Shown piece by piece: positions 31,849 through 62,153 of a stretch of 64,000 nt of DNA. The stretch is from Planctomycetaceae bacterium (GTDB taxonomy: Bacteria; Planctomycetota; Planctomycetia; Planctomycetales; Planctomycetaceae): positions 1 to 64,000 of the forward strand of contig JAHBXV010000007.1 of assembly GCA_019636285.1 (NCBI GenBank), read 5' to 3'. A program made the translations under genes and the position numbers. A model generated the notes under the pieces. It was not told the DNA's origin. It did no database searches and saw nothing but the letters and a program-made list of their open reading frames with translations. Within the stretch, counting starts at the first letter, position 1. The number at the start of each line of letters is the position of its first letter.

Positions 31849-32064
31849 GTGATCGAACTGTTCATCCAGACGCTGCAGCAGGAGTGTCTCGATTACTTCG
31901 TGGTGTTCGGCGAGCAGCACATGAACTGCGTGGTTTCAGAGATGGTCGCCCACTATCACGAGGAGCGGCCGCATCAGGGGAAGAGGAATGACCCGCTAAT
32001 TCGAGGATCGACGAAACCTGCAATGCAGCTTGATACCGTCACGGATTGGGTGATGTACAGATAG
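31849..32064 (+). pseudogene. Transposase integrase-core remnant (left end of island)
   Basis: Only the C-terminal part of a DDE transposase/integrase core remains ([20 protein letters not shown], then [15 protein letters not shown]). The glutamate of the DDE triad and the YH-x-ERPHQG ending are typical of IS3/IS481-like integrase cores. The N-terminal catalytic Asp residues are missing. About 115 bases are close to 90% identical at DNA level (by eye) to the remnant near 55370. Upstream bases 31611-31848 hold no gene. Confidence 0.7.
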
Positions 32065-37416: not shown

Positions 37417-38070
37417 CTCGCCACGGGTCTTTGAAAATCGAAATGGGTGTCGCGCCTGAACGACTGCCGGACGAACCGATGCGGCAGCTCGGTCCGGTCC
37501 TGACGAACCGGGGATCGCTGAAGGATCGCCGCGATTCAAATCGTCGCGCCGGGTGGATCGATCGACTATTGAAGCAAATCGCGAACCGCCATGCCCGCCC
37601 GAGAGGTTCAACTTCCGGGGGATTGGACGAAACCGGGGCTACCGGGAGAGAGTCTGTCATCACGCCGGCATGACTAGTGAACTTGTCCACGTAAGCAGCC
37701 GCTCGTGAATCGCGAGCGAATGCCCGTTTCCGTCGCAGATTGGCGCGAGGTTCGGGCACGCCCTTCGATATCTCGCCGGAGAGTTTGTCGAGACGCCCTG
37801 AACCGGAAGGAGGCTTGGCGATGGCGAAACTGTTTGCACAATCACGGCTTAGTGCGGAGGTATGGCGGCGGAAAGGGAGTTGGCATTCAGCGGCACGTCA
37901 GTTGCTGCCAGGAAAAAATTCTGTCGGCCAAGGAACTCATGCTGGATTGACAGACAAATCCTGTTTAATATTTGGTCACACTTCTCTCGTGGATGTATTC
38001 ACATCCAGATCATGCGTTCCGTCGGCTTCAACAACTTTTCTGCTTCCACCTTATTTCGGGGGGCCTCCTC
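37417..38070. other. Divergent intergenic region
   Basis: 654 bases between the divergent glycan operon and the DUF1559 gene. An ATG at 37821 with a strong GGAAGGAGG upstream opens a ~95-codon frame that overlaps the DUF1559 start in another frame and has no recognisable features; I do not call it a gene. AT-rich bases near 37947-37975 (TTGACA then TTTAATATT) may contain a promoter with non-standard spacing. Confidence 0.35.
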
Positions 38071-39039
<969 letters not shown>

Positions 39040-39205
39040 CATTCTGCCGATTTCGATTTTCTTGACTGCCCGCGAGTATGTGTTCGTTCGTGTCGCCGGA
39101 CTGCCCGATCTTTTGGGCCTCGCGGCTACGACTTGGCTTCTCGCGATCTGGTTTCTGGTTTGGTGTGTTCGATCTGGAAGGTGCAGTGCCTTGAGACCAT
39201 TTGCC

Positions 39206-39649
39206 ATGAGTCGATTCGCAGCTTGCGGGGTTCTGCTGGCCGTCGGAGTTACGGTGGGATGTGGTGGTGGATCGACAACCCCCGAACTCGCTCAAGTGAG
39301 CGGAACGGTGCTGATCAACGGAGCCCCGCCGTCCGGCCCTTTACGCGTCGTCTATGAGCCGCAGTCGAGCGGATCGAACAAGACGGGGGGAACGTCCTCC
39401 GAGGGAATGACTGATCCCAGCGGAAAGTTCGAATTGAGATATCGTGGCGAGACGCCTGGTGCAGTACCCGGTTCGCACGTGGTGAGAATTTATCCGAATG
39501 CAGGCGGCGGTCCCGCCGGCGGCGAAATGGCAGTGCCGCAAGACTTGATGATTCCAGCTTCCTACAACGACCTAAGCACCCTCACGCGGACCGTGGAAAA
39601 AGGGAAAAAGAACGAGCACACGATCGAGATTGAGTTGAAGAAGAAATAG
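39206..39649 (+). CDS. Small secreted lipoprotein paired with DUF1559
   Basis: 147 residues from the ATG at 39206, which begins a lipoprotein signal (RFAACGVLLAVGVTVGCGGG, lipobox VGCG). The mature part starts LAQVSGTVLINGAPPSGPLRVVYEP and has a DPSGKFELRYRGETPGAVPGSH stretch split by turns, like a carboxypeptidase-regulatory or transthyretin-type beta-sandwich. It ends in EIELKKK. Probably anchored to a membrane and associated with the DUF1559 protein. Confidence 0.8.
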   Translation: MSRFAACGVLLAVGVTVGCGGGSTTPELAQVSGTVLINGAPPSGPLRVVYEPQSSGSNKTGGTSSEGMTDPSGKFELRYRGETPGAVPGSHVVRIYPNAGGGPAGGEMAVPQDLMIPASYNDLSTLTRTVEKGKKNEHTIEIELKKK

Positions 39650-40066: not shown

Positions 40067-41917
40067 TCATGGGCCGATCGTTTGTCGATACCGGTAGAGG
40101 ATCGACAAACGATCGCGATCGGCCGGTGAGGGTGGACGTCCCCGTTGTTCTTCGAGTGCGAGCTTGCGTTCCAGGTAACGAGGGCGGTCAGGCGCCAACT
40201 GGACTGCCATACACGCGGCTGCGACAGCCTTCTCACTGTCTCCCACGTGTTGGTAGCAGTCGCAGAGCATGATCCAGACATCGGCCATGGGGCGAGCACG
40301 GACCGCCTGTTCCAGGTGCTCGATCGCCGCTCGCGGCTGATTCTGCTGATAGAGGGTCGCCCCTTTCGTGAAAGCCGCCGTGGCGAGCGCGTCGAGACTC
40401 GATCTTGGATTGCCGATGACAGAGTCCGCGAAGCGGATGGTTTGCGCGGGATTGTTACCCCATGACAGTCGCGCGAGCCCGGCGGCGACTTCGGGGTCGT
40501 CGCGCCAGGCCTTTGAAGCCAGCAGCAGTTCCTCGGCCTTCTGGCGATGAAGCCCGGCCTGGGGACCGCCTTCGGCCGTGTCGGAAAACTGCAAGTGAGC
40601 CAGGCCGAGATTGCGATCCGATTCGATCGGGGACATTCCGTCCGGCTGATCGACCGGGATCAGTTGAGCCGATGACAACGGCTCGGGAGCGGCAGCGGAC
40701 TGTGTATGAACCGCGATGCGGTGATGGGTGAAGGCGAAGTGGGGGATGTCGGTCTTGCCGGACGGCATGTGGCAGCGCACGCAGTCATCGAAACCGGTGG
40801 AGTCGAGCCGCGTTTGCCGCGGGCTTTGGCAGGAATCCGGCGTATGGCAGGCCAGGCACTTTTCCTGGTAGTAATCGCGATTCTCTTGCATGGGGCGGGA
40901 TACATGCGGGTCGTGGCAGGTAATGCATGTCATCGTCCCGCTGTCGATGTAGCAGCGGCTCAATTTCATCTGTTCGCCATGCCCGGTGACCGTCATCCCC
41001 GCGTTGTCGGTGGCCCGCGAATAGTGAATGACATAGTCGGACAGCGAGTCACCCGGACGAAAGGCCTCCAGCGTTCGTCCCGGTCTTTCGACGGTGGCGG
41101 CACCGTGAAGATGGCATTGCAGGCAGATGTCTTCCGAAATCGTTCGTTCCAGACGCCCAGGATGGGCGATCGTCGGGTCCCCCTCGCGATCGGCAAACGG
41201 AGTCAGCTTGTCAACGGGTTTGCCCGCGTGCTTTGCCTGGTGCAGGCCGCCCGGGCCGTGGCAGCGTTCGCAGTCGATCGCTTCCGTCGGGAAAGCCAGT
41301 TTCTGCGGGCTGCTGTCGAGCGATTCGACGCGACCGGCGTGACACTGCATGCAACGGTTGTCGATGGGGCGCTGAAAGCCGACGTTATTGGCTTCGTAAC
41401 CCGGCGAAAGCCCCCACGCTGACTTGCCCGTGTACCAGGTGACGGGCGATTCAAACAGGTAGCCATCCTGTTCGATCAGGTAGCTGCGGGAAAAATGCCC
41501 CGAGCCGACGACGTATGCCATCGCATGATCGGCGAGGATCAGCGGCTCGCCGGACGGCGTTTGGATGGACTCTTCATGGCGCAATTCATTGTCGCCGCGA
41601 TAGATGCGATACCACCGCTGGCTGGCCTCATGGTGAAACTCTCCGTCCGGCGGCTCTTCATCGATCGAGACTTTGGCGAGGGCGTGCCGATGGGCCGTCT
41701 TGTGGTAAGTTGCGTGTTGGTCCTGATGGCATTTGGCGCACGCATCGGAGCCGATGTAGGCAACGTCGGGAGCCATGTTGGCAAACCGCGGCGGCGTTTC
41801 GGCCATCGCGGGATTTTGAACGGGGGGACGCGGCCAGTACAACCAGCCAGCGAGCAGCAATGCGGCGCACGCCAACGAGACGACGATTTGTCCAGCAAAA
41901 CGACGGGGTAAGACCAT
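40067..41917 (-). CDS. Seven-heme cytochrome c with TPR C-terminus
   Basis: 616 residues. An N-terminal membrane anchor or signal (IVVSLACAALLLAGWLYW) precedes seven CxxCH heme-binding motifs: CAKCH, CMQCH, CERCH, CLQCH, CITCH, CLACH and CVRCH, resembling cytochrome c554-type proteins. Residues ~430-610 form TPR-like repeats (for example AFTKGATLYQQNQPRAAIEH). It probably carries electrons in the periplasm while binding partners. Last gene of the six-gene operon, three bases after the sulfotransferase. A redox enzyme active site cannot be assigned. Confidence 0.85.
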   Translation of the reverse strand: MVLPRRFAGQIVVSLACAALLLAGWLYWPRPPVQNPAMAETPPRFANMAPDVAYIGSDACAKCHQDQHATYHKTAHRHALAKVSIDEEPPDGEFHHEASQRWYRIYRGDNELRHEESIQTPSGEPLILADHAMAYVVGSGHFSRSYLIEQDGYLFESPVTWYTGKSAWGLSPGYEANNVGFQRPIDNRCMQCHAGRVESLDSSPQKLAFPTEAIDCERCHGPGGLHQAKHAGKPVDKLTPFADREGDPTIAHPGRLERTISEDICLQCHLHGAATVERPGRTLEAFRPGDSLSDYVIHYSRATDNAGMTVTGHGEQMKLSRCYIDSGTMTCITCHDPHVSRPMQENRDYYQEKCLACHTPDSCQSPRQTRLDSTGFDDCVRCHMPSGKTDIPHFAFTHHRIAVHTQSAAAPEPLSSAQLIPVDQPDGMSPIESDRNLGLAHLQFSDTAEGGPQAGLHRQKAEELLLASKAWRDDPEVAAGLARLSWGNNPAQTIRFADSVIGNPRSSLDALATAAFTKGATLYQQNQPRAAIEHLEQAVRARPMADVWIMLCDCYQHVGDSEKAVAAACMAVQLAPDRPRYLERKLALEEQRGRPPSPADRDRLSILYRYRQTIGP

Positions 41918-41920
41918 CGG

Positions 41921-42490
41921 CTATTGCTCCGGTTCGCTGCGTTGCCGATAGAGTTCCGGTCGGATCACGTCCCGCATCGCTTGCCGGCCCAGCGGGACGC
42001 CGAGGAAGTCGCAGACCGAGTCGACGCCGCTCGCGGGATCGGCGACGAGTCGTGCGTAGTCGCAATCGAGCACCGTGAAGCGATCCTGCTTCCGGATCCA
42101 TTGGCGAATTTCCGTCAGGTGCCGCGAGAAGTGATCGGCCATGGCCGAGTCATTCAGCCCGTCATCGATCCCTCTGCGGATCAGCATGGTCTTTTGTGAT
42201 CGCAACGTCTCGCGGAGATCACGGGCCATGAAGATCAGTCGATAGTCCTGGCTGGCTGGCAAATAGCGGAGCAGCGGGGAAACAACCTTGACGGCTTTTC
42301 CCTCGGCTAGCGCGAGCCATGACTGATCGCGGTCGATACGCCGGATCGGTTCGAATTCGAAGTAACCCGCCGGGTTCGAGTCATCGGCGGGACGCTGGTC
42401 GTCGCACAGCACGGGGAATCCCCCGGCGTGGAGCATCTGCATCATCAGGGATGTCCCGGAACGGGGCAGGCCCGTGACGACGACAATCAT
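41921..42490 (-). CDS. Sulfotransferase family protein
   Basis: 189 residues, shorter than typical (~250-300). The N-terminal P-loop-like PAPS site is VTGLPRSGTSLMMQML (5'-phosphosulfate loop), and the 3'-phosphate-binding region is ARDLRETLRSQKTML. The end (CDYARLVADPASGVDSVCDFLG) is the usual C-terminal helix of bacterial sulfotransferases. It would transfer sulfate from PAPS to a hydroxyl on a glycan or lipid. The middle, which fixes the acceptor, is compressed. It is followed three bases later by the cytochrome gene. Confidence 0.85.
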   Translation of the reverse strand: MIVVVTGLPRSGTSLMMQMLHAGGFPVLCDDQRPADDSNPAGYFEFEPIRRIDRDQSWLALAEGKAVKVVSPLLRYLPASQDYRLIFMARDLRETLRSQKTMLIRRGIDDGLNDSAMADHFSRHLTEIRQWIRKQDRFTVLDCDYARLVADPASGVDSVCDFLGVPLGRQAMRDVIRPELYRQRSEPEQ

Positions 42491-42510
42491 CTAAAGACCT
42501 CAAACTTGAT

Positions 42511-43344
42511 TCAGAACAGCGAAACACCCAGCGGGCGCGCCAGCAACAGGGCGAACGCAAAAATGATGACCAGTACCGCTTCCAGCCAGGAAGCATCGTA
42601 CGGACCAAACTCCAGAATACGTTCCGGATACTGCACATGAATTCGCGTGATGGGGCTGGGAGCATCCAGGGGCGGCGCGCCGGGATGCCAGAATTCGCGC
42701 GACAACCCGGCCCGGACACGCATGGGCGTGACGCGGCACAATGTCGCGCCGACGGCAATGTCTGCTCGTTCAACTGTCGAACCGACTCCGACATCCAGGC
42801 GCCCGTATCCTTCCTCCACAGCAGCGATCCGAAAGGCGACCGCGTTGCGAGAGGCAATCCGGACGATCGGGGAATCGAGTCGCAAGCCGGGCGACAATTC
42901 AATCGCCACGTCGGTGGTGTCGACGGGATAATCGCGGGCCAGGGTAACGTCCACTGCCGTTCGTTCCCCCACGGCGAGCGGACGCCGTTCAAACCAGCCT
43001 TCAAATTGCACCAGCAGCGGAACGACGATGATCGTGGCCGCCAGAATCGGCAGCGCCAAGCAGGCGAGATAGCGGACGTTCGCCGCGAGGAGCCGCACGA
43101 AAGAGACCGCGTTCGCTTTCAGGCTGTGTCGATAGAGAACGAGTTCCAGCGCCCGGGCGAGAAAGATATTCCGACATTTTTCCAGCTCGTTCGACTTCGT
43201 CAACCAGCGGAACAGCCCCAGCATCAAGAGGGCGACAATCGCACCACCGACGATGAGCGCGGGCCATGGCGAAACGCCGCGGAAGAGCGCGAAAACGCCA
43301 TCCACCGCAGCGGTCAGGCCATCGCGTAGGGCTCTCGCGATCAT
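42511..43344 (-). CDS. Membrane protein of unknown function in the sulfotransferase operon
   Basis: 277 residues. Helices at ~30-48, ~83-110 and ~252-272 enclose a ~140-residue periplasmic, beta-rich part (VDVTLARDYPVDTTDVAIEL, then GYGRLDVGVGSTVERADI). I do not recognise the family. The start overlaps the stop of the small RHH gene by four bases, and the sulfotransferase follows 20 bases later, so it is expressed with them. The domain layout fits a periplasmic binding or scaffold protein. Confidence 0.7.
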   Translation of the reverse strand: MIARALRDGLTAAVDGVFALFRGVSPWPALIVGGAIVALLMLGLFRWLTKSNELEKCRNIFLARALELVLYRHSLKANAVSFVRLLAANVRYLACLALPILAATIIVVPLLVQFEGWFERRPLAVGERTAVDVTLARDYPVDTTDVAIELSPGLRLDSPIVRIASRNAVAFRIAAVEEGYGRLDVGVGSTVERADIAVGATLCRVTPMRVRAGLSREFWHPGAPPLDAPSPITRIHVQYPERILEFGPYDASWLEAVLVIIFAFALLLARPLGVSLF

Positions 43345-43532
43345 TCGATGTACCCCAGCCCCTTCAGGCGTTGGCGGACATCCTGCTCGGATTGCGATTG
43401 CCGCGCATCGGCGACGGCTTTTTCCAGCAGATGCGTGACGAACTCCTCGACCGAGGAATATCCCGCCTGGCGCGCGACCTCCTCGACCTGTCGATGCAGC
43501 TCCCGATCGATCCGGATCCTGGGTTCAAACAT
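43341..43532 (-). CDS. Small ribbon-helix-helix-like protein with LGYIE tail
   Basis: 63 residues. The core MFEPRIRIDRELHRQVEEVA followed by GYSSVEEFVTHLLEKAV looks like a ribbon-helix-helix strand and two helices. The tail ends RLKGLGYIE. A similar LRSLGYIGG sequence occurs in the sulfatase-like protein encoded on the other side of the operon, right after its catalytic domain. This makes a role at the alkaline-phosphatase-superfamily proteins as likely as a DNA-binding role. It overlaps the membrane protein gene by four bases and follows the phosphatase gene by 30 bases. Confidence 0.75.
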   Translation of the reverse strand: MFEPRIRIDRELHRQVEEVARQAGYSSVEEFVTHLLEKAVADARQSQSEQDVRQRLKGLGYIE

Positions 43533-43562
43533 GGCTGAGTCCTGAGGGACGATGGGGTTCGA

Positions 43563-45563
43563 TCATGCAAACTCCAAAGGTTGGCCGGTCATTTCCACGG
43601 GAATCGCTGCGCCCATCGCCGCCAGAATCGTGGGAGCCAGATCTTCCAGTCGCGGCGAAGCGACGTCGAGTGCCCGGCTGCTGAGCAGAACGCCCGGGAC
43701 CAGGCTGGGATCGATGCAGTGGTCTCCGCTCCACGGATCGAGATTGTCGAGAATCTGCTGTCGGGGAAACCCGCCAAGAATCGTGTCCCACGACGCCCGA
43801 TAGCCCCGCTGGTAGCCGACAATCAGATCCGGCGCGTTCACGGCCTGCGGTCCCTGGTAGATGTCTTCCGACCGGAAAACATTGGCGATTACCGCTTCTC
43901 CAGTTTCGGGATCGCGAATCGCTTCGAGACGCTCCTTCAATTTGGCAGTCAGTTCGGGAACCCGCTCCGGGTCGACACATCCGGGATTTTCGCGTCCCTT
44001 GCGATTGAGGTACAGCCCATTGAGGCCGACGCCATAGGCGAGCGTGCGCGACCAGTCGACGCCCTGGAAGGGAATCTCGCCGGTCCGGATCGGAGGGCCA
44101 TCCGTCTGGAGATAGCCCTCGTCGAGCAGCCACGAGTTGAGATTGAACTGCCGCCGGAACGGGGCAAAACCATGATCGGAGAGAACGATCAGCCAGTCGC
44201 CGTCGTTGAGCCGCTCGAGCGCGAGACCAATCGCTTCATCGACCTTGTGGTACAGGTCTCCCAGGTGGCCGCCGAAACCACGGGCCAGGTCGGGTGTATA
44301 CAACGGATGTTTCTCATCCAGACTTCGCCAGAACATGTGCGAAGCCAGGTCGAGCGTGGAAAAGTAATAAAACAGAAAACCCCGGTCGAAGCGGGCGAGT
44401 TCGTGCTGGAAGAACTTCAGGCGTTCTTCGTGAACGAACAGGGCCTGCTGGCAATATTCCTCGTTCGACAGCACGCCGGCAGACAGCGCGCGTGTGTCCT
44501 CGATAATTCCCTGCGTGTAGAAGTAGCCCAGTTCGCGGACCAGCGATCGCGAATAGTCGGGCGGCATCGAGATAGGGACCGCAGGATCGCGCGGATCGAT
44601 ATTCACCGGGGAGACATACAGCCCGAAGGCGCCGTGGGTCTTCTTGAGATACAGCCGAACAATCCCGGCCGCGTCGACCGCCATGGGGAGCAGCGGAAAT
44701 CGCACGTTGATCCAGTCGCTCCATTCCCCCTCGGCAAGGACGACTGTCGTGCTGTCAATCGTGATCACCGCGGCCCCGCGCGCCATGTCGCGTTCGATGA
44801 CAATGGGAACGGTCGCTGGCTCCGGTTGTACGGAGAATTCATTGACCGGGCCCTTCAATTGGCACGTCGCGCGATCGTTCTCGAACTCAATTCGCTCGAT
44901 CCGACCGCCGCCTGCGTCGCGCGTGCGCTGGGATGGGTCGTCGGTGAAATACGAGAAGGTTCCGTAGCCGCCCGCGAGATCGGGTGTGCCCATTCCGGAC
45001 AGCGTAACAGCCTCCGATTTGTCCGGAGGAAACGTCGCCGGCATCCGCAGGATCGTGCAGTCGATGCCGATGGCTTCCAGCGAGTCCCAGAACGTCGGTC
45101 CCTGACGCAGGTTCCTGACAGGGGGAGAGGAAACGGGAAGCACGTATTTGCCGATGGTGAGCTTCGTGGCTCGTCCTGGTTCCTGGCGAGCCGTCGAGTG
45201 ATACGGCTGCATCGATTCGGGATCGCGGGCGACGAAATCGAAGATCCCATGCACCCCGGGATTGCACCCGGAGATAAAGTTCGACCACGCGACAGGACTT
45301 TGCGGCGGATTGCTGGTCGCGAGCGTGTAGAACGACCCGCGCGCGATGAGCCGCTGGCAGTTGGGCATCCGGCCCGCATCCAGAAACTGCCGCAGGAGGT
45401 TCGGGTCCATCCCGTCAATACCCAGCACGAGGACTCGACCAGGCTGGTCTGTCGACGGGGCTCGTGTCTTGAAACAGCCTGCCAGCCCCGTCATGCCGGC
45501 CGCCACGGCAGAACCGACGAGCCAGTCTCGCCGCGACAGACGATGCTGTTGGTCATGACTCAT
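43563..45563 (-). CDS. Alkaline-phosphatase-superfamily enzyme, Tat-type lipoprotein signal
   Basis: 666 residues from the ATG at 45563 (overlaps the upstream gene by ATGA). The N-terminus has a twin-arginine pattern (HRLSRRDWLVGSA) and a lipobox-like LAGC. Superfamily metal sites are visible: LGIDGMDPNLL (Asp), LDLASHMFW, LSDHGFAPF and WSGDHCIDP. The position of the nucleophile reads QSPVAWSNF, so Ser is the likely nucleophile and it is not a formylglycine sulfatase. It is a type I phosphodiesterase/nucleotide-pyrophosphatase relative; the substrate is unknown. A close paralogue is directly upstream. Confidence 0.85.
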   Translation of the reverse strand: MSHDQQHRLSRRDWLVGSAVAAGMTGLAGCFKTRAPSTDQPGRVLVLGIDGMDPNLLRQFLDAGRMPNCQRLIARGSFYTLATSNPPQSPVAWSNFISGCNPGVHGIFDFVARDPESMQPYHSTARQEPGRATKLTIGKYVLPVSSPPVRNLRQGPTFWDSLEAIGIDCTILRMPATFPPDKSEAVTLSGMGTPDLAGGYGTFSYFTDDPSQRTRDAGGGRIERIEFENDRATCQLKGPVNEFSVQPEPATVPIVIERDMARGAAVITIDSTTVVLAEGEWSDWINVRFPLLPMAVDAAGIVRLYLKKTHGAFGLYVSPVNIDPRDPAVPISMPPDYSRSLVRELGYFYTQGIIEDTRALSAGVLSNEEYCQQALFVHEERLKFFQHELARFDRGFLFYYFSTLDLASHMFWRSLDEKHPLYTPDLARGFGGHLGDLYHKVDEAIGLALERLNDGDWLIVLSDHGFAPFRRQFNLNSWLLDEGYLQTDGPPIRTGEIPFQGVDWSRTLAYGVGLNGLYLNRKGRENPGCVDPERVPELTAKLKERLEAIRDPETGEAVIANVFRSEDIYQGPQAVNAPDLIVGYQRGYRASWDTILGGFPRQQILDNLDPWSGDHCIDPSLVPGVLLSSRALDVASPRLEDLAPTILAAMGAAIPVEMTGQPLEFA

Positions 45564-47689
45564 GGGGCACTCCCAGCCATCGCCGGTTCGTGCTGGACAG
45601 GAGTCTTCGCCTTCGCTGTCGCGGCGCGAGATTCGTTGATCGGAATCACGCGGCCATCCATATGACCCGGAACCGGAACGCCAAACTGCTGGAGAATCGT
45701 GGGGGCCAGGTCGATGAGTGCCGGCGACTCGCCAGGTTCGAGTGCGAGACGCCGATTGATCAGCAGCACGCCCGGCACAATCTCCGGGTCGACGCAATGA
45801 TCGCCGCTCCAGGCGCGTGTGTTATCGCTGAACAGCGGCCCATCGACGCGGCCAACCGCATTCTCCCACGAGGCGCGATACCCGGCTTCGTAGCCCACGA
45901 TCAGGTCTGGCCCCTCGTTGACGTACGGGCCCGTGTAAGCTTCGCGACTGTCATACACACGGCGGATGGCAACCGATTGCCGCTCGGGGTCGATGATCCC
46001 TGTCAGTCGCTCGCAGATCTCTGCCCGCAGAGTCGCTGCATCGCCAGGAGCGACGATTCCCTGGTGTTCACGCCCCGCCAGATTGATGTAAATGCCGTTG
46101 AGTCCGAACGCATACGCCCTTGTCTTTTCCCAATCAACACCGGCCAGATAGTCCTCAGTTTCCGCGCCCGCGCGCGTCGTCAGATAGCCATGATCGCGGA
46201 GCCAGATATTCAGATTCACGCCCCGGCTGAAGTCGCAAAAGCCGTGATCGGAAATCACCATGAGAAGCGCATCATCGTGTAGCGTCTTCGCGACTCGTCC
46301 GACGAGGTCATCCATTCGGGCATACATTTCGTCGATTGCTCGCGCGTGCGGTGAGTTCTCTCGACCGAGATTCGCCGGGTGTCCAGGTACGTCGTGGCGA
46401 TAGAACATGTGCTGAATGCGGTCGGGACCGTCGAAGACACAGATCGTCAGCCCGTCGGGGGACGTCTTCAAGCTCTCGAACAGCATCCGTTCGCGTTCGT
46501 CGTGAATCCGCCAGGCCTGGTCAAGAAAGTCTGCCTCCGAAAGAACATCGCTGTTAAGTCCCCAGGTGTCTTCGGCCAGCCCCAGCGTCGCGAACGGGCC
46601 GTGCAGCTTGCGGAGGTAGATCGAATACAGCGGCGGATGGGCGATCGGCATCACCGGCTGCCCCGCGTCGATCTGGATGGGAGACACATACACGCGCAGC
46701 TCGGGGGAGATCGACAACAAGCGAAACTCACACAGGCCGGAGATCGATCGACCCCACTCACAGGGAAACCGGACCGCTTGCCAACCCGACGATTCCCCCG
46801 GCTTCAAGGAGAACCGCGTCTTTCCGATCTGAAACTGAACCGTCGCGTCGGAGCTCTTCCGTCGTAGCAGTACCCGTACGCGAGATTCCGAGCTGCTGCT
46901 GGAACCGTTTCGATTTGATGACTGACCAAGCGGCGGCCCGGGCAGCCAGGCTTCCGTGCGACTTCCGCGCCGATCCATGAGAATCGAGATGCCACCCGTT
47001 CGCGACCGGCACTCGGCGGCGTCGGTTGTCAGCAGCGTGAAAGTCCCCTGCGTGCCGCGCAGATCGGGCGTACACATAGCCGAGAGCGAAACGCCGCGGA
47101 ACGGTTCGGGCGGAAACGAGATCGGCACGCGCAAAATCGTGCTGAACAAGCCGTGGTCCCCGAGAATCTTCCAGAACGGCTTGCTCTTGCGAAGCATGCG
47201 CACGGAAGCGCGCGTTCCTGGAATCCACTTCCGCCAGCCTCGCCGGTCGGGTTCGGTGATGCGCGCGGATGACAGATACGGCCGATACGTTCGCAGGTCG
47301 CGATTCAGAAAGTCGAAGATCGCATGTTTTCCGGGGTTCGTCCCCGTCTGAAACGAGGACCAGGCCACCGGCGACATCGGCGGCAGGGTCGTTTTCAAAT
47401 CAGTGAATGTGCCCCGCGCGGCCAGTGCCTCGAAATTCGGCATCTTTCCTTCATCGATCAGCCGCCGGGTACGGCCGGGATCAAGACCATCGAGTCCGAT
47501 CACGACAATCTGCCGAACAGTCCCTTTTGGTGCCCGTCGACCCGTCGACAGGAGCGCGAGCAAAAGGCGAATCGGCCAGGTCGCGACAAGCACCAGCAGC
47601 AGCAGGACGGCAGAGAGGATGACGAACAGCGACCCCGCGAAGGTCAGGCCGGCTCCCGGACCGATGTACAGAAAGATCATCGACTTCAA
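45560..47689 (-). CDS. Alkaline-phosphatase-superfamily enzyme, membrane-anchored paralogue
   Basis: 709 residues; an ATG three codons later (MIFLYIGPG) is an equally good start. Two hydrophobic N-terminal segments (~5-50) anchor it. The catalytic pattern parallels the next gene: VIGLDGLDPGR, MSPVAWSSFQTGTNPG (Ser nucleophile position), FDGPDRIQHMFY, ISDHGFCDF and WSGDHCVDPEIVPG. It is probably a periplasmic phosphodiesterase or phosphotransferase. First gene of the six-gene operon; promoters for both directions must lie in 47690-47961. Confidence 0.85.
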   Translation of the reverse strand: MKSMIFLYIGPGAGLTFAGSLFVILSAVLLLLVLVATWPIRLLLALLSTGRRAPKGTVRQIVVIGLDGLDPGRTRRLIDEGKMPNFEALAARGTFTDLKTTLPPMSPVAWSSFQTGTNPGKHAIFDFLNRDLRTYRPYLSSARITEPDRRGWRKWIPGTRASVRMLRKSKPFWKILGDHGLFSTILRVPISFPPEPFRGVSLSAMCTPDLRGTQGTFTLLTTDAAECRSRTGGISILMDRRGSRTEAWLPGPPLGQSSNRNGSSSSSESRVRVLLRRKSSDATVQFQIGKTRFSLKPGESSGWQAVRFPCEWGRSISGLCEFRLLSISPELRVYVSPIQIDAGQPVMPIAHPPLYSIYLRKLHGPFATLGLAEDTWGLNSDVLSEADFLDQAWRIHDERERMLFESLKTSPDGLTICVFDGPDRIQHMFYRHDVPGHPANLGRENSPHARAIDEMYARMDDLVGRVAKTLHDDALLMVISDHGFCDFSRGVNLNIWLRDHGYLTTRAGAETEDYLAGVDWEKTRAYAFGLNGIYINLAGREHQGIVAPGDAATLRAEICERLTGIIDPERQSVAIRRVYDSREAYTGPYVNEGPDLIVGYEAGYRASWENAVGRVDGPLFSDNTRAWSGDHCVDPEIVPGVLLINRRLALEPGESPALIDLAPTILQQFGVPVPGHMDGRVIPINESRAATAKAKTPVQHEPAMAGSAP

Positions 47690-47961
47690 ACTGCCATCAC
47701 GAGGGAAAGCGTCTCATTCGATTCGCGGTTCCGGAGTCATGTTTCGTAGTTGGAGAGAATGCCGAGCGCGGGTGGTCCATCAATTGCAATGGGCCTCTGG
47801 ACAGCCGACGATAGCTTCTTGAGCACGCCTTGAGTCAAGCGAACCGTCTCTCTATCTTCGCGAGTCGCGGGCCGCGAGGCCAGAGTCGAGAGTGGAGAAA
47901 AGCGCGGAAACTCTTCGGCCGGAAACGCTCGCTTCTCGACCCGGAAAGGCCGATCTCGAAG

Positions 47962-50079
47962 ATGAGTGTTTTGCGACGGTACTGGTGGCTCGCGGGAGTG
48001 GTCATTGTCGTCGGCCTCGCGGCATGGTGGCTTGTTCCGCGAACGCCGCAAATCGACCTCATCGTCATTACTCTCGACACGACGCGCGCCGATCGCCTGG
48101 GTTGTTACGGCTACGACGCTGCCGATACGCCGACACTCGACAAGTTGGCGCGAGAAGGGGTGGTTTTCGACCGTTGCTTTTCACCCGCCCCGCTGACGTT
48201 GCCAGTCCACGCGACCCTGTGGACCGGGCTCAATCCGCCGGAGCACGGGCTGCGAACGAATGGCCGTGGCGCCTTGCCGAAGCGTGTTGCGACCTTCGCG
48301 GGAGTCTTGAAGCAGGCTGGTTACCAGACGGCGGCGATGACGTCGTCGTTCGTGCTCGATTCGCGCTTCGGACTCAACCGGGGATTCGATGTCTACGACG
48401 ACGATCTTCCCGCCGCGGAGGGAGACGATGTCCAGTTGCATCAGCAGCGGGATGGTCGGGACACGGTCGACCAGGCTCTGAAGTGGCTGAGTTCAATTGG
48501 CTCACAACCGTATTTCTGCTGGGTCCATCTGTACGATCCGCACTACCCGTACCTGCCGCACGAGGATATTTTTGGCGAGACATTTCGCGATCGTCCGTAT
48601 GACGCGGAACTGGCTTACGTCGATCGGCAAATTGCCCGGCTGCTCGACTACGTCGCCAGCAGCGGCCGGGCCGATCGAACCGTGGTCGTGATCGTCGGCG
48701 ATCACGGCGAAGGACTCGGCGACCACGTCGAACGAACACACGGCTACACGCTGTATAACGTCACGCAGCGTGTGCCGCTGATCGTTCATGCCCCCGGTCG
48801 TGTTCAGGGCGGAAATCGACTGGCCGCCAGTTTTCCCCTGTCGGACCTGCCGGCGACTCTGCTTGACGTTCTGGGGATCCGGAATCGGCTGGCTGAGAGT
48901 TCCCGGAGCGCGATGCCTGCCTTGAACGGCGGCGAACTCGCCGATCGAGCCTGTTACTTCGCGACGGACGACCCCTATCTGCAGAATGGCTGGTCACCGC
49001 TGCGCGGCATTTGCCTGGGCGACTGGAAGTACATCCGTACCACGGAGCCGGAGCTGTACGACCTGGGGACTGACTTCGGTGAGATGCGGAACCTTGCCGA
49101 TACGAATACCGAGAAACTCGCCGAGTTTGATGGCCGGCTGAAAGAACTCGAATCCGGAATGTCTGTCGGCACGGCCGATCAGGTGCAACTTTCGACGGGC
49201 GAAATCAACGCCCTGCGCAGTCTGGGATACATCGGCGGAGCGAGTACCTCGGAACCGACGGGCGCGCTGAACGTCGACACGCTTCCTGACGTCAAGGAAA
49301 TGCTGCCGCTCGATGTTCGCGCGGAAGAAGCCCTGAAGCGGCTTGCCGAAGGACAGGTCGACGAAGCAATCGCCGAGCTGCGACGGAATGTTGAACAGTC
49401 TCGCTGGCATCTGGCATCGCAGGTTTTTCTGGGCGAAGCGCTGGAAAAGGCGGGGAAACCCGACGAGTCGATCGAGTTGTACAAACAGGTGCTGAGTCTC
49501 AAGCCCGACCACACCGACGCGCTGATTCACCTGGGGGCCATCCTGTCGGCTCGCGGCGAGTACGAACGGGCGATTCCCTACTTCGACGAGGCCCTGCGCG
49601 TCGACCCGTCGTCCTCCCCCGCGCGCTTCAACGTCGCTCTTTCGCTGGCCCGGTTGGGCAACTTGCGCGAATCGATCCAGCATCTGGAAAAACTGCTCGA
49701 CGCTGACCCATACTTCCCCGACGCTTTGACGGCGCTCGGAAATGCCCTGCTGGCCATGGGAGACCGTACGGGCGCGATCGCCGCGTTCCGGCGTGAGGCA
49801 AAGCAGAATTCCAAGTCCGTCGAGGCCAGGATCAATCTCGCGGTTCTCACGGCCGATTCCGACGCGAAGCAAGCCCGGGAGTTGCTCAACGAGGCGCTGC
49901 AAATTGCTCCCGACAATCCGAACGTCCACTTCAACCTGGGAGCGCTCTGCCTGATGCGGGGTGACCCCCAAGAGGCCATCGAGCATCTCACCGAAACATT
50001 ACGGCTTCAGCCCAACCATCCCCGCGCGGCATCGGAACTCGAACGAGCCGAAAAGGCCCTTAAACCGCCTGGCCGCTGA
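47962..50079 (+). CDS. Sulfatase-like hydrolase with TPR C-terminus, threonine at the nucleophile site
   Basis: 705 residues from the ATG at 47962. N-terminal membrane anchor (YWWLAGVVIVVGLAAWW), then the alkaline-phosphatase superfamily domain: ITLDTTRADRLGCYGY, VIVGDHGEGLGDH and a C-terminal INALRSLGYIGG boundary near residue 420. The position where true sulfatases carry C-x-P-x-R (formylglycine) reads PLTLPVHATLWTG, so Thr replaces Cys, as in nucleotide pyrophosphatase-type enzymes (TFPNH). Residues ~450-700 are about seven TPR units (IELYKQVLSLKPDHTDALIH and similar). It diverges from the six-gene operon by 272 bases. Confidence 0.85.
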   Translation: MSVLRRYWWLAGVVIVVGLAAWWLVPRTPQIDLIVITLDTTRADRLGCYGYDAADTPTLDKLAREGVVFDRCFSPAPLTLPVHATLWTGLNPPEHGLRTNGRGALPKRVATFAGVLKQAGYQTAAMTSSFVLDSRFGLNRGFDVYDDDLPAAEGDDVQLHQQRDGRDTVDQALKWLSSIGSQPYFCWVHLYDPHYPYLPHEDIFGETFRDRPYDAELAYVDRQIARLLDYVASSGRADRTVVVIVGDHGEGLGDHVERTHGYTLYNVTQRVPLIVHAPGRVQGGNRLAASFPLSDLPATLLDVLGIRNRLAESSRSAMPALNGGELADRACYFATDDPYLQNGWSPLRGICLGDWKYIRTTEPELYDLGTDFGEMRNLADTNTEKLAEFDGRLKELESGMSVGTADQVQLSTGEINALRSLGYIGGASTSEPTGALNVDTLPDVKEMLPLDVRAEEALKRLAEGQVDEAIAELRRNVEQSRWHLASQVFLGEALEKAGKPDESIELYKQVLSLKPDHTDALIHLGAILSARGEYERAIPYFDEALRVDPSSSPARFNVALSLARLGNLRESIQHLEKLLDADPYFPDALTALGNALLAMGDRTGAIAAFRREAKQNSKSVEARINLAVLTADSDAKQARELLNEALQIAPDNPNVHFNLGALCLMRGDPQEAIEHLTETLRLQPNHPRAASELERAEKALKPPGR

Positions 50080-50336: not shown

Positions 50337-51071
50337 ATGGAACAGTGTCCGGTCCACAGTGAACCCTATGTTCCCGATGATGAACCGCGATTGATCCTAG
50401 AGCTGATCGAACTGGCGACGCGGTATGGCCGGTATGGATATCGGCGGATTACGCAGTTGCCACGAGACCGGGGCTGGCGTCAGGAAGGACTGAAAGTGCC
50501 GCAGAAACAGCCGAAACGGAGACGATTATGGTTCAACGATGGCTCCTGTGTGCGGCTGCGTCCGCAGCATCGGAATCACGTGTGGAGTTATGATTTCTTG
50601 CAGTCGTGCACGCACGATGGTCGGTCGTTTCGCGCTTTGACGATCATCGATGAATTCATACGGGAGTGCCTGGCGATCGATGTGGCGCGAAGGCTGCGGA
50701 GCGAAGATGTCCTGGAGCGATTGTCGGATCTGTTCATTCAGCGCGGTGTGCCGAACCACATCCGCAGTGATAATGGTCCGGGGTTCACGGCGAAGTGTGT
50801 GCGCGAGTGGTTAAGTCGCGTGGAGGTGAAGACGTTGTTCATCGAGCCGGGCAGTCCTTGGGAAAACGGTTACATCGAGTCGTTCAACGGAAAGCCGCGC
50901 GATGAGCTCTTGAACGGAGAAATCTTCGACACGCTTCTGGAAGCGAAAGTACTGATCGAACAGTGGCGGTGGAGTACAACACCATCCGTCCGCACAGTTC
51001 GCTGGGGTACCGGTCACTCGGGTACCGGCCCCCCGCCCCCGGAAGCGATTCAGGCCGAAGAACTAATTTAA
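50337..51071 (+). pseudogene. IS3-family transposase remnant
   Basis: Integrase-core (rve) remnant with WSYDF, RSDNGPGF and YIESFNGKPRDELL, the three DDE residues in place. Compared with complete IS3 OrfB proteins, the N-terminal segment lacks ~14 residues between DRGWR and RQEGLKVPQK. The C-terminus is frameshifted near 50965: the proper ending (AVEYNTIRPHSSLGYR) continues in another frame (50963 onward). Not functional. I saw no terminal inverted repeats. The flanks 50080-50336 and 51072-51274 hold no other gene. Confidence 0.8.
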
Positions 51072-55319: not shown

Positions 55320-55500
55320 AGGCAGCCCTCTGCTCGCCGAACACCTGCGCGTTCGTGGAACGTTTTATTCAGACACTGCAGCAGGAGTGTCTCGACGACT
55401 TCGTGGTGTTCGGTGAGAAGCACATGAACCACGTGGTTTCGGAGATGGTCGCCCACTATCACGAGGAGCGGCCGCACCAAGCCGAGGAGAGCAACGCATT
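55320..55500 (+). pseudogene. Transposase integrase-core remnant (right end of island)
   Basis: Encodes [39 protein letters not shown] and [10 protein letters not shown], the C-terminal part of a DDE integrase core. Compared with full-length relatives it lacks the two catalytic Asp. It is very similar to the remnant at 31849-32064 and in the same orientation, 23.5 kb apart. The frame is open from 55178 to 55594, but only this middle part is recognisable. Confidence 0.7.
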
Positions 55501-55870
55501 TTTGGGCTTCATCGGGACAGGAGAAAACGAAAACAGCGAGGGGAGAATGCTTGACTGGTGGCCACTTTCCGGGACGATGCACTGCACCGGATGATACCCT
55601 CGCCAGTTCCCGCGGGGTCACCCCCGGTCCCCTGGCCCCCCACAGTAGGCTGCTCACCTGCCCCATTTGGCCCGTTAAGGCCGAGAGTCGAAATTGTCAG
55701 CGAATTTCCGGCCACTTGCGTTAACACTTGAACCCGCACGCAAAGTTAAGCCGGATTGAAACTCGCAGCGGCCTCGCGGAGATGATTGCCCTCAGTGGGA
55801 CTCACATGAAAACCAGAGTAGACTCCTGCGGGCACAATATCAGGTCTTACCATGTTGAATGTCCTGGACA

Positions 55871-59455: not shown

Positions 59456-60862
59456 ATGTTCCTCAAATACTTCTATGACCCGCACTTGGCACACGCCTCC
59501 TATCTGGTCGGTTGTCAGAAAACCGGTGAAGCCGTGGTGATCGACCCCGGCCGGAACGTCGAACCGTACCTGGAAGAGGCCCGGCGCGAGGGGCTACGGA
59601 TCGTCGGCTCGGCCGAGACGCATATCCACGCCGACTTCGTTTCCGGCTCCCGCGAACTGGCCGACCGCGTTGGCGCGAAGCTCTACCTGTCGGATGAAGG
59701 GCCGGCGGACTGGAAGTACCTCTATGCCGATCAATACCACTCGCAACTCCTGAAGCACGGGGACGTGTTCCGCGTCGGCAACGTCAAGCTGGAAGCCGTT
59801 CATACGCCGGGGCACACGCCGGAGCACCTGTCGTTCCTTCTCACTGACGAAGGAGGGGGAGCGACGGAGCCGATGGGGATCTTCACCGGCGACTTCGTGT
59901 TCGTCGGCTCGATCGGACGCCCCGACTTGCTGGAGACCGCGGCGGGCGTCGCCGGCAGCGCGGAGGCGGGAGCACGGCAACTCTATCACTCGATGCGCCG
60001 CTTCCACGAGCTTCCCGATTATCTGCAAGTCTGGCCGGCCCACGGAGCGGGCAGCGCCTGCGGCAAGGGGCTGGGAGCGATCCCCTCCAGCACGGTCGGG
60101 TACGAGAAGCGGTTCAATCCGGCGCTGCAGTACCACGATGAGCAGCGGTTCGTCGACTACATCCTCTCCGAGCAACCGGAGACGCCGTATTACTTCGCGG
60201 TCATGAAGCGGGTGAACAAGGTCGGACCGGAACTGATCCGCAACCTGGTTCCTGTCGCGGCCATTTCACAGACGGAACTCGCACAGACTGCCGAGCGATA
60301 CCTGGTGATTGACCCATCGCCGTCGGCGGAATTCGCGAACGCCCACGTTCCCGGGACGATCAACATTCCGTCTGGTTCTCTCGTCCAGTGGGCGGGATTC
60401 CTGGTCGACTACTCGCAGCCGATTTACCTGCTCATCGATGAGAAGGCGCTGCCGGAACACTTGCGCCGCGTACGGTCCATCGGGATCGACAATGTTGGCG
60501 GTTACTTCGGCGTCCAGGCAGGTTTGCGAACGCAATCGTATGTGTCACTCGCCCCGCAAGAGTTGCAGCCCCGTATCGAACACGGTGAGGCAACGCTGCT
60601 GGACGTTCGGGCGCTCACCGAATTCCAGGCGGGGCACATCCCCGGTGCCGAGCACCGGTTTCTCGGCAAGTTGCCGCGAGAGATCGAGAACATAAATCGG
60701 TCGAAACCGGTGGTCGTGCAATGTCAGGGCGGAGGACGCTCGGCGATTGCCACGAGCCTGCTGCAACGGGCCGGATTCGACGTCACGAACATGTCGGGGG
60801 GATTGAATGCCTGGAAAGCAGCCGGCCTCCCCGTCGTCGGTCTCCAGGCATCATGCCTGTAA
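59456..60862 (+). CDS. Persulfide dioxygenase-rhodanese fusion (MBL-fold)
   Basis: 468 residues. N-terminal metallo-beta-lactamase fold (~1-240): ETHIHADFVSGSRELA (HxHxD metal motif), HTPGHTPEHLSFLL and FTGDFVFVGSIGRPDL, as in ETHE1/Blh-type persulfide dioxygenases. Then two rhodanese-like domains. The first (~270-350) has LLIDEKAL where the active Cys would be, so it is inactive. The second (~365-465) has VVVQCQGGGRSAIATSLL with the active Cys. It oxidises glutathione persulfide to sulfite and transfers sulfane sulfur, i.e. sulfide detoxification. It precedes the ferritin-like and TauE genes. Confidence 0.88.
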   Translation: MFLKYFYDPHLAHASYLVGCQKTGEAVVIDPGRNVEPYLEEARREGLRIVGSAETHIHADFVSGSRELADRVGAKLYLSDEGPADWKYLYADQYHSQLLKHGDVFRVGNVKLEAVHTPGHTPEHLSFLLTDEGGGATEPMGIFTGDFVFVGSIGRPDLLETAAGVAGSAEAGARQLYHSMRRFHELPDYLQVWPAHGAGSACGKGLGAIPSSTVGYEKRFNPALQYHDEQRFVDYILSEQPETPYYFAVMKRVNKVGPELIRNLVPVAAISQTELAQTAERYLVIDPSPSAEFANAHVPGTINIPSGSLVQWAGFLVDYSQPIYLLIDEKALPEHLRRVRSIGIDNVGGYFGVQAGLRTQSYVSLAPQELQPRIEHGEATLLDVRALTEFQAGHIPGAEHRFLGKLPREIENINRSKPVVVQCQGGGRSAIATSLLQRAGFDVTNMSGGLNAWKAAGLPVVGLQASCL

Positions 60863-60897
60863 TGGACCTTCACCACCAACCCCATGGGAGACCAATC

Positions 60898-61338
60898 ATG
60901 TCTCAGCAGCAACAACTGACTGCGAAACTTAACGAACAATTGAATCGCGAAGTGACAACCTTCCCGCGGTACATGGTCCAGGGGGCTTCGATCCAAGGAG
61001 CGGAGTGGGAGAGCGTGCGGGCCATGTACCTCGCCGAAGTGACCGATGAAGTCGGTCACGCCCAATACCTGGCCAATCAGATCGTGGCGCTCGGATCGAC
61101 GCCCGACATCCAGCCGGAACTGGCGGCCCCGCTCGCGACTCCTCAAGACATGCTGGAGCGCGACATCGTTGAAGAGCAAACCGACGTGGCCAACTACGTC
61201 GCTCTGGCGGAACTGGCCGGAAAGCAGGGTTTGTACGCCCTCAAGATGGCGATGGAACAGCAGGCGGCGGACGAAGACGAACACCGGCAGACCATGCAGC
61301 GACTGCTGGGGAAATTACTGGCGTGGGGATGTCCATGA
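60898..61338 (+). CDS. Ferritin-like di-iron protein
   Basis: 146 residues from the ATG at 60898 (GGGAGACC upstream); the frame is open from 60721 within the previous gene. Four-helix ferritin-like fold with repeating E/ExxH pairs: RYMVQGASIQGAEWESVRAM, LAEVTDEVGHAQYLANQ (E-x6-E..H), ERDIVEEQTDVANYV and ADEDEHRQTMQRLL. Close to bacterioferritin/Dps-like proteins; iron storage or peroxide handling is likely. Its place between sulfide genes suggests protection in a sulfide or metal response. It overlaps the next gene by four bases. Confidence 0.8.
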   Translation: MSQQQQLTAKLNEQLNREVTTFPRYMVQGASIQGAEWESVRAMYLAEVTDEVGHAQYLANQIVALGSTPDIQPELAAPLATPQDMLERDIVEEQTDVANYVALAELAGKQGLYALKMAMEQQAADEDEHRQTMQRLLGKLLAWGCP

Positions 61339-62153
61339 CCGCCTTGAGCCTCGCGTTTGGCGTTTTAATCGGCCTGTCGCTCGGTCTGACAGGTGGCGGC
61401 GGGGCGATCTTCGCCGTGCCGCTGTTGGTCTACGGACTTGGTGTTTCGGCCAAAGACGCGGTCGTGACCTCCTTGGCCGCCGTCGGAACGATCTCCGCCG
61501 TGGGATTTCTGACCTATTGGAGACGGGGTCTTGTCGAACCGCGGACGGGGCTCTTCTTCGCCATCGCGGGAATGCTCGGTGCTCCGGCAGGAACCTGTAT
61601 CGCCAGCCGGATGCCTGAAACGGTGCTCCTGTTACTGTTCGCGGGGTTGATGGCGGTGGTCGCCGTTCGGCTCTGGCGTCAAGCAACCAATCGGAGGCCC
61701 GAACCTTCACCCGCTGGAACGAACGACTGCCGCGATGCCCCGACTTGCCAGCGCGACGCGACTGGCGAACTGATTCCGACCTCTCGCTGTGCGATCCTGC
61801 TGGTTTTCGTCGGCGTCATGGCCGGCGTGCTGTCGGGATTGTTCGGGGTCGGCGGCGGCTTCATCATCGTCCCGGCCCTCGTTCTATTCAGTGGCATGCA
61901 GATCCACAAAGCCGTCGGCACCTCTCTCCTGGTGATTGTCCTCGTGAGCGCGGCGGGACTCGTTTCGCAATGGTACGCGGGACGGACGGCCTCGGCCGCT
62001 GTCACACTCTGGTTTGTTCTTGGAGGAACGGCCGGATTGCTCGCCGGGCAGCAGATCGGCCGACGGCTCCCCGCGCCGGTTCTGCAAAGAGTGTTCGCCG
62101 TCGCCATCCTCGCGGTCGCCCTCTTCTTAGTTTTTCGAAACACCCTTGCCTGA
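61335..62153 (+). CDS. TauE/SafE family sulfite exporter
   Basis: 272 residues from the ATG at 61335 (ATGA overlap); ATG at 61329 and GTG at 61323 are also in frame. About eight helices in two homologous halves, each starting with a Gly-rich helix: FGVLIGLSLGLTGGGGAIFA and AGVLSGLFGVGGGFIIVPAL. A short polar loop separates the halves (~120-145, containing several Cys). It probably exports sulfite formed by the persulfide dioxygenase upstream. Confidence 0.88.
   Translation: MTALSLAFGVLIGLSLGLTGGGGAIFAVPLLVYGLGVSAKDAVVTSLAAVGTISAVGFLTYWRRGLVEPRTGLFFAIAGMLGAPAGTCIASRMPETVLLLLFAGLMAVVAVRLWRQATNRRPEPSPAGTNDCRDAPTCQRDATGELIPTSRCAILLVFVGVMAGVLSGLFGVGGGFIIVPALVLFSGMQIHKAVGTSLLVIVLVSAAGLVSQWYAGRTASAAVTLWFVLGGTAGLLAGQQIGRRLPAPVLQRVFAVAILAVALFLVFRNTLA

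Follow-up and report, generated by a model that had tools for sequence, protein, structure and literature searches.

What common task, if any, holds together six closely packed genes in the genome of a planctomycete? The question is raised by contig JAHBXV010000007.1 of a Planctomycetaceae bacterium (GenBank assembly GCA_019636285.1), of which positions 1 to 64,000, called here the window, were analysed. Within the window, six minus-strand genes, lettered A to F in their order from 47689 to 40067, diverge from a plus-strand gene, G. A preliminary description of this DNA took the six for one strictly linked pathway, in which two phosphodiesterase-like enzymes (A and B), a small ribbon-helix-helix (RHH)-like protein (C), a membrane protein (D), a 3′-phosphoadenosine 5′-phosphosulfate (PAPS) sulfotransferase (E) and a heptaheme cytochrome (F) might make or remodel a sulfated or phosphorylated surface molecule with a redox step. 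We find that A-B-C-D is a conserved core and that E is its true recurrent partner; F is not part of it. We propose that A-B-C-D(-E) would be a membrane-spanning module for the PAPS-dependent sulfation of a membrane-linked molecule (a lipid, a lipid-linked glycan or a similar carrier), and we give this reading, whose chemistry and substrate we infer, a probability of about 0.55.

The conserved core consists of the four genes A-B-C-D, whose linkage is beyond chance. Three sets of loci were compared: 39 planctomycete loci fit for gene calling, obtained by searching genomes of the phylum with D; the best 80 loci from a profile search with A, which are mostly metagenome bins whose taxon names may be wrong; and 16 further loci selected by D, eight of them new in the window's class and eight from Desulfobacterota. 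D marks the module most specifically: with D as the only query, 41 of 294 searched genomes of the phylum gave a hit. The four genes stand consecutively in 35 of the 39 D-selected planctomycete loci, the exceptions including two contigs that start inside B. D is held by 65 of the 80 best A-profile loci, with C present in all 65. The A-profile loci span more than ten phyla: Planctomycetota, Acidobacteriota (where the order is often B-C-D-A), Desulfobacterota/Deltaproteobacteria, Dadabacteria, Omnitrophota and Eisenbacteria, together with Calditrichota, Gemmatimonadota, Aminicenantes, Poribacteria, Spirochaetes and a few others. The module is widespread but patchy, D being present in 8 of 148 genomes sampled from the phylum to which a Thermodesulfobacteriota-named bin belongs and in 12 of 118 from the window's class.

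Sixteen of the A-selected loci are incomplete, about ten of them because the contig ends within the locus. A stands alone in three loci of Acidobacteriota (our handles L133, L134 and L143), two (L071 and L075) have A-B without recognisable C or D, and in one (L081) D is not recognisable. Downstream of B in L071 and L075, unassigned genes of 330–343 and about 190–200 residues stand in place of D and E, possibly as very divergent versions of them.

As for E, the order ASST-A-B-C-D-E, in which ASST is an arylsulfate-sulfotransferase-type gene matching PF05935, is found in seven of the eight new loci of the window's class, and E follows D within 1 kb in five of the eight Desulfobacterota loci. A position of E after D recurs in several phyla. 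The protein matches PF13469 with 55 bits (1.4e-14; cut-off 27) and PF00685 with 38 bits (2e-9; cut-off 22), and its N-terminus has a P-loop-like TGLPRSGTS, a 5′-phosphosulfate loop. It is predicted from its family to be a sulfotransferase of the PAPS type, active with PAPS.

Genes for making activated sulfate recur in the same operon. Among the 39 D-selected planctomycete loci, ATP sulfurylase (Sat) is present in 16, adenosine 5′-phosphosulfate (APS) kinase (CysC) in 19, and one or both in 21; neither was found in nine comparably long control stretches of that phylum. The usual order in loci with these genes is RHH2-Sat-sulfatase-like-CysC-A-B-C-D. Variants checked with Pfam include an arrangement RHH-(Sat)-PDE-CysC-PDE, PDE being a phosphodiesterase, directly before A in L120 and L128, and CysC with CysD/CysN-type subunits directly after D in L136, which has a divergent E as well. 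In L123 a TauE-type transporter gene follows A. In the source genome (6.4 Mb, 99.8% complete) the genes for ATP sulfurylase and APS kinase lie on contigs C48 and C45, not in the window, and a search of this genome for ASST (PF05935) gave none. The preliminary description was right to place A to E in one linked unit, and a connection with sulfation finds strong support in relatives with Sat/CysC, CysD/CysN/CysC, ASST or the same sulfotransferase. At first E and the genes for PAPS synthesis seemed likely to exclude each other, but L136 holds both.

What kind of enzymes are A and B? They are 40% identical to one another and both match PF01663 (104 and 108 bits, cut-off 23), so that their earlier description as paralogues of the alkaline phosphatase superfamily stands. 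The AlphaFold2 (AF2) model of A has a predicted local distance difference test (pLDDT) score of 89.7 and consists of a short N-terminus with a YIGPGAG motif, one long membrane helix (residues 11–49) and a domain of the nucleotide pyrophosphatase/phosphodiesterase (NPP) type. It has the NPP fold, the matches being ENPP5 (Z 28.0, 340 residues aligned) and Xac NPP (Z 27.9) with a root-mean-square deviation of 3.8 over 340–350 aligned residues; a single-sequence search of solved structures found no close homologue of A. The metal ligands and nucleophile would be D67, S106, D423, H427, D481, H482 and H631 in A, and D50, S89, D405, H409, D463, H464 and H615 in B, which we take, from motif spacing and general knowledge, to correspond to the Xac NPP site. 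They are invariant or kept in at least 90% of 50–60 relatives. The Pfam matches and this ligand set, with the modelled fold of A, place both proteins in the NPP/type I phosphodiesterase family, whose activity they are predicted to share. A plasmid search with A returned only distant haloarchaeal and rhizobial proteins of the superfamily (25–30% identity), without the A-D module; haloarchaeal megaplasmids hold several such distant paralogues, one of which (L198) adjoins surface-glycan-type genes.

The two paralogues seem to differ in their location. Because the 30 residues after the helix of A carry a positive stretch (mean net charge +7 in 79 relatives), the positive-inside rule makes it most likely that its catalytic domain is cytoplasmic. 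B, from its start at 45563, has a signal of the twin-arginine translocation (Tat)/lipoprotein type, SRRDWL...LAGC, as have many relatives, and would for that reason lie outside the cytoplasm. With A inside and B exported, the two probably work on opposite faces of the membrane.

If the reaction is divided between two faces, D would be well placed to join them. A structure prediction for this 277-residue protein, named as a check in the preliminary description, gave an AF2 model with a pLDDT of 95.7 and about three membrane helices: a membrane helix at 26–48, then a hairpin in the cytoplasm, another membrane helix running to residue 118, an Ig-like domain at 121–201, predicted to be periplasmic, and a last membrane helix at 253–269. 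Pfam has no match to D. By eye, its topology is like the three-helix core of Oxa1/YidC/EMC3 with a cytoplasmic coiled coil; the list of structure matches is filled by the Ig-like domain, with weak Ig/filamin-type matches only (Z up to 6.9), and among the matches listed there is none to Oxa1/YidC. A scan of genome contigs for exact peptide patterns with D alone gave no match, because D is too divergent for such patterns. In L136, a metagenome bin, D is in two pieces (L136:14294-15166) with an internal TAG; either the sequence is in error or the gene is broken.

In almost every relative, the gene for the small protein C immediately precedes D. Its RHH nature, proposed in the preliminary description, is suggested by a match to RHH_1 under the Pfam cut-off (E 0.007) and by weak hits of its profile to structures of NikR. 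In its C-terminal tail, of the type LxGLGY, L56, G58, L59, G60 and Y61 do not vary among 47 C proteins of relatives belonging to many phyla. An LxxLGY-type tail ends 53 of 53 and 68 of 68 RHH proteins in two locus sets, against 0 of 258 and 4 of 714 among the proteins of these loci that fell into no cluster; of the four, two are members of a tetratricopeptide repeat (TPR) lipoprotein family that itself bears the tail. The LGY motif is also terminal in some operon CysC proteins and in TPR lipoproteins, and internal in ASST-like proteins (LRSLGYVGG) and in G (LRSLGYIGG), which is the only gene besides C with the motif among the called genes of the window. This recurrence in CysC, ASST-like, sulfatase-like and TPR proteins suggests that LGY may be a shared interaction motif; with LGY proteins on either side of the membrane, it is hard to name one docking partner for all of them. 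In any case, the tail provides a searchable marker connecting otherwise unrelated protein families. Two observations may be added. The APS kinases at L120:8707-9315 and L128:8769-9371 end in an extra RLKALGYI or RLHDLGYI, like the RHH proteins, and many other CysC proteins of the set have no such tail. The tail of the RHH profile also matches the VAKQLAALGYM end of yeast uL13 (4v91_O, residues 174–201), a eukaryotic ribosomal protein, probably by chance.

The cytochrome F, a Paired_CXXCH/Cytochrome_C554 protein with TPR by Pfam and seven CXXCH motifs, is probably co-transcribed with the module in the window; it lies outside the conserved module and is a bystander, at most an occasional passenger. 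In genome G216, contig C39 carries its best orthologue (52%) and contig C42 carries A-D. Homologues elsewhere usually have other genes beside them: some adjoin members of an unrelated family that recurs there (CRTAC1-like by eye), some face a sulfatase-like gene, and some stand by themselves. F was found in none of the 16 further D-selected loci, and a solved-structure search with it gave short or TPR matches only. A homologue lies 59 bp before A in L078, the single exception. The linkage claimed earlier for all six genes holds for A-B-C-D and, in the window's class, for E; in other planctomycetes and other phyla it is A-D, and in some lineages E, that co-occur, and F, with its different neighbours, has to be taken out, together with the redox step ascribed to it. 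G, the divergent gene, is of a frequent but not constant kind, a sulfatase-like gene being within the stretch in 25 of the 80 A-selected loci. It had been described as a TPR protein with a sulfatase-like domain; PF00884 and TPR agree with this. At the nucleophile position, however, G has Thr (TLPVH) and no CxPxR formylglycine motif. A formylglycine-dependent sulfatase function for G was rejected, since TLPVH stands in place of C/S-x-P-x-R.

How might the parts work together? In the proposed scheme, Sat/CysC or CysDNC would supply PAPS in the cytoplasm; their genes lie in the operon in several lineages and elsewhere in the source genome. Cytoplasmic E, judging from its family, would transfer the sulfuryl group to an acceptor. 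A, anchored in the inner membrane and acting at its cytoplasmic face, and B, outside, would cleave a phosphodiester of the carrier, or an ester of similar kind, or else transfer it. D would join both sides through its predicted membrane helices, cytoplasmic hairpin and Ig-like outer domain. Where present, exported ASST-like and sulfatase-fold proteins might hand the group to the final acceptor or trim it from there, and C may regulate the operon or dock partners. It is tempting to go further and to imagine a pan-bacterial trans-envelope sulfuryl transfer, in which the cytoplasmic PAPS chemistry of E and A would be coupled through D to B and to ASST-like or sulfatase-fold partners, with the LGY motif of RHH, CysC, ASST-like and TPR proteins as the common docking signal. 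This extension is tentative, and we hold it to be clearly less probable than the sulfation module as such.

Several observations weigh against a sulfation module. The sidedness of A is read from the positive-inside rule only, and many lineages have no E beside D. E, Sat, CysC or ASST is within the stretch in only 30 of the 80 A-selected loci, so that either PAPS genes commonly lie outside the stretch or the sulfur link is not universal, and an ASST relay cannot be general, since the source genome has no ASST. In many loci there is no sulfur gene in the neighbourhood, which would suit a headgroup or teichoic-like phosphotransfer (LtaS/EptA-like in principle), next to which sulfation genes would stand only since both decorate the envelope; enzymes of the alkaline phosphatase superfamily with intact metal sites, together with a membrane protein, would fit this as well. 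We consider it unlikely, given that three unrelated kinds of PAPS genes recur in the same operon as against none in nine controls. Similarly unlikely, in our judgement, is nucleotide housekeeping, in which A and B would be nucleotide pyrophosphatases clearing pyrophosphate (PPi), APS, 3′-phosphoadenosine 5′-phosphate (PAP) or PAPS by-products and would have no lipid or surface substrate. The NPP fold of A and the probably cytoplasmic position of its domain are consistent with such a role, and in Pyrococcus yayanosii (Thermococcales) a copG-Sat-pApase-PDE-APS kinase cluster, PYCH_17520-17560, was read, speculatively, as serving sulfate assimilation and PPi removal, its authors taking a related phosphodiesterase as pyrophosphate-degrading (PMC8268124). 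But B appears to be exported, away from the site of PAPS synthesis, D has a modelled extracytoplasmic domain, and L120 and L128 already hold smaller phosphodiesterase paralogues beside Sat/CysC in addition to A and B.

The sulfatase-fold neighbours such as G might instead suggest scavenging or desulfation, that is, the release of sulfate or phosphate from esters in the environment, a task of many planctomycete sulfatases. We find this improbable: G has Thr and no CxPxR, the recurrent partners make or use PAPS, and A appears cytoplasmic. Least probable of all is the original six-gene pathway with F giving a redox step; the gap of 3 bases between E and F and the homologue before A in L078 speak for it, and the separate contigs of G216, the usual neighbours of F homologues and the absence of F from the further D-selected loci speak strongly against it.

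The features of the locus are collected in the table. Gene calling on the window found all seven genes at the positions given in the preliminary description, whose 4-base overlaps, seven CXXCH motifs and divergent sulfatase-like/TPR gene were likewise recovered; for G, a start at 47962 scores better than that at 47830. A, B and C are each single copy in the source genome.

Table. Genes and motifs of the A-F operon and of the divergent gene G in the window.
Feature	Position	Strand	Basis and remarks
A (PDE1), predicted NPP-type enzyme of the alkaline phosphatase superfamily, 709 aa	47689-45560	-	PF01663 1e-29
B (PDE2), paralogue of A, probably exported, 666 aa	45563-43563	-	PF01663 1e-30; overlaps A by 4 bases
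C, ribbon-helix-helix-type protein, 63 aa	43532-43341	-	Sub-threshold RHH_1 match; gap of 30 bases to B
LGY tail of C (LKGLGYIE), C-terminal	43344-43367	-	Conservation in relatives
D, membrane protein, 277 aa	43344-42511	-	AF2 model; overlaps C by 4 bases
E, compact sulfotransferase of predicted PAPS type, 189 aa	42490-41921	-	PF13469/PF00685; gap of 20 bases to D
F, heptaheme TPR cytochrome, 616 aa	41917-40067	-	Seven CXXCH; gap of 3 bases to E
G, divergent membrane-anchored sulfatase-fold/TPR protein	47830-50079	+	PF00884 and TPR
LGY motif of G (ALRSLGYIGG), between sulfatase-like domain and TPR	49213-49233	+	Motif scan

Around the operon, IS3-type transposase fragments lie at 31849-32064, 50337-51071 and 55355-55594 and flank the region; those at 31849 and 55355 are, by eye, closely alike remnants. 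At 37993-39649 a gene for a protein with a prepilin-like N-terminal methylation signal is followed by that of a small lipoprotein, a pair that other planctomycetes also have beside genes of the G and F types. At 59456-62153, some 9 kb away from G, are metallo-beta-lactamase/rhodanese-like and TauE/SafE-type transporter genes, sulfur-related and named by eye only.

Since PAPS is cytoplasmic and envelope sulfation beyond a few model bacteria is largely unknown, an ordered four-gene unit in more than ten phyla offers a defined target. If the module does make sulfated lipids or glycans, such molecules may be far commoner than supposed, including in Planctomycetota, Acidobacteriota and Desulfobacterota. 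Literature searches, outside whose reach most subscription journals lay, found no description of the A-B-C-D core, of COG3379 or of the LGY motif.

How, then, does the module compare with known systems? With the NPP family (Xac NPP, the ENPPs) it shares the modelled fold of A and the full set of metal ligands; the differences are an identity of about 14–18% over the structurally aligned residues, a large insertion, an anchor in the membrane and a Ser rather than Thr nucleophile. The ASST-like gene of the relatives keeps the HVNS and QH histidine stretches of Escherichia coli AssT (3elq) and matches PF05935, but the similarity is weak (E 5e-4) and the source genome has no such gene. In the rhizobial nodPQ-nodH system, PAPS synthesis and a sulfotransferase are dedicated to an exported molecule, and L136, with CysC-CysD-CysN and E around A-B-C-D, is similar in this respect; we know of no nodPQ-nodH locus with an NPP-type pair, an RHH-LGY protein or D. 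The closest described arrangement is the Thermococcales copG-Sat-pApase-PDE-APS kinase cluster. It has a DHH pApase and one phosphodiesterase and, as described, neither the large A/B pair nor D (PMC8268124); Sat and APS kinase, part of that cluster, are elsewhere in the source genome rather than in the window, although relatives such as L128 have them in the cluster. The preliminary statement that no such system has been described holds, in the literature searched, for the A/B pair with D and an LGY-tailed RHH protein, and has to be qualified by this partly similar published archaeal cluster (PMC8268124), whose copG/RHH-type gene, ATP sulfurylase, APS kinase and type I phosphodiesterase recall the RHH-(Sat)-PDE-CysC-PDE arrangement of L120 and L128.

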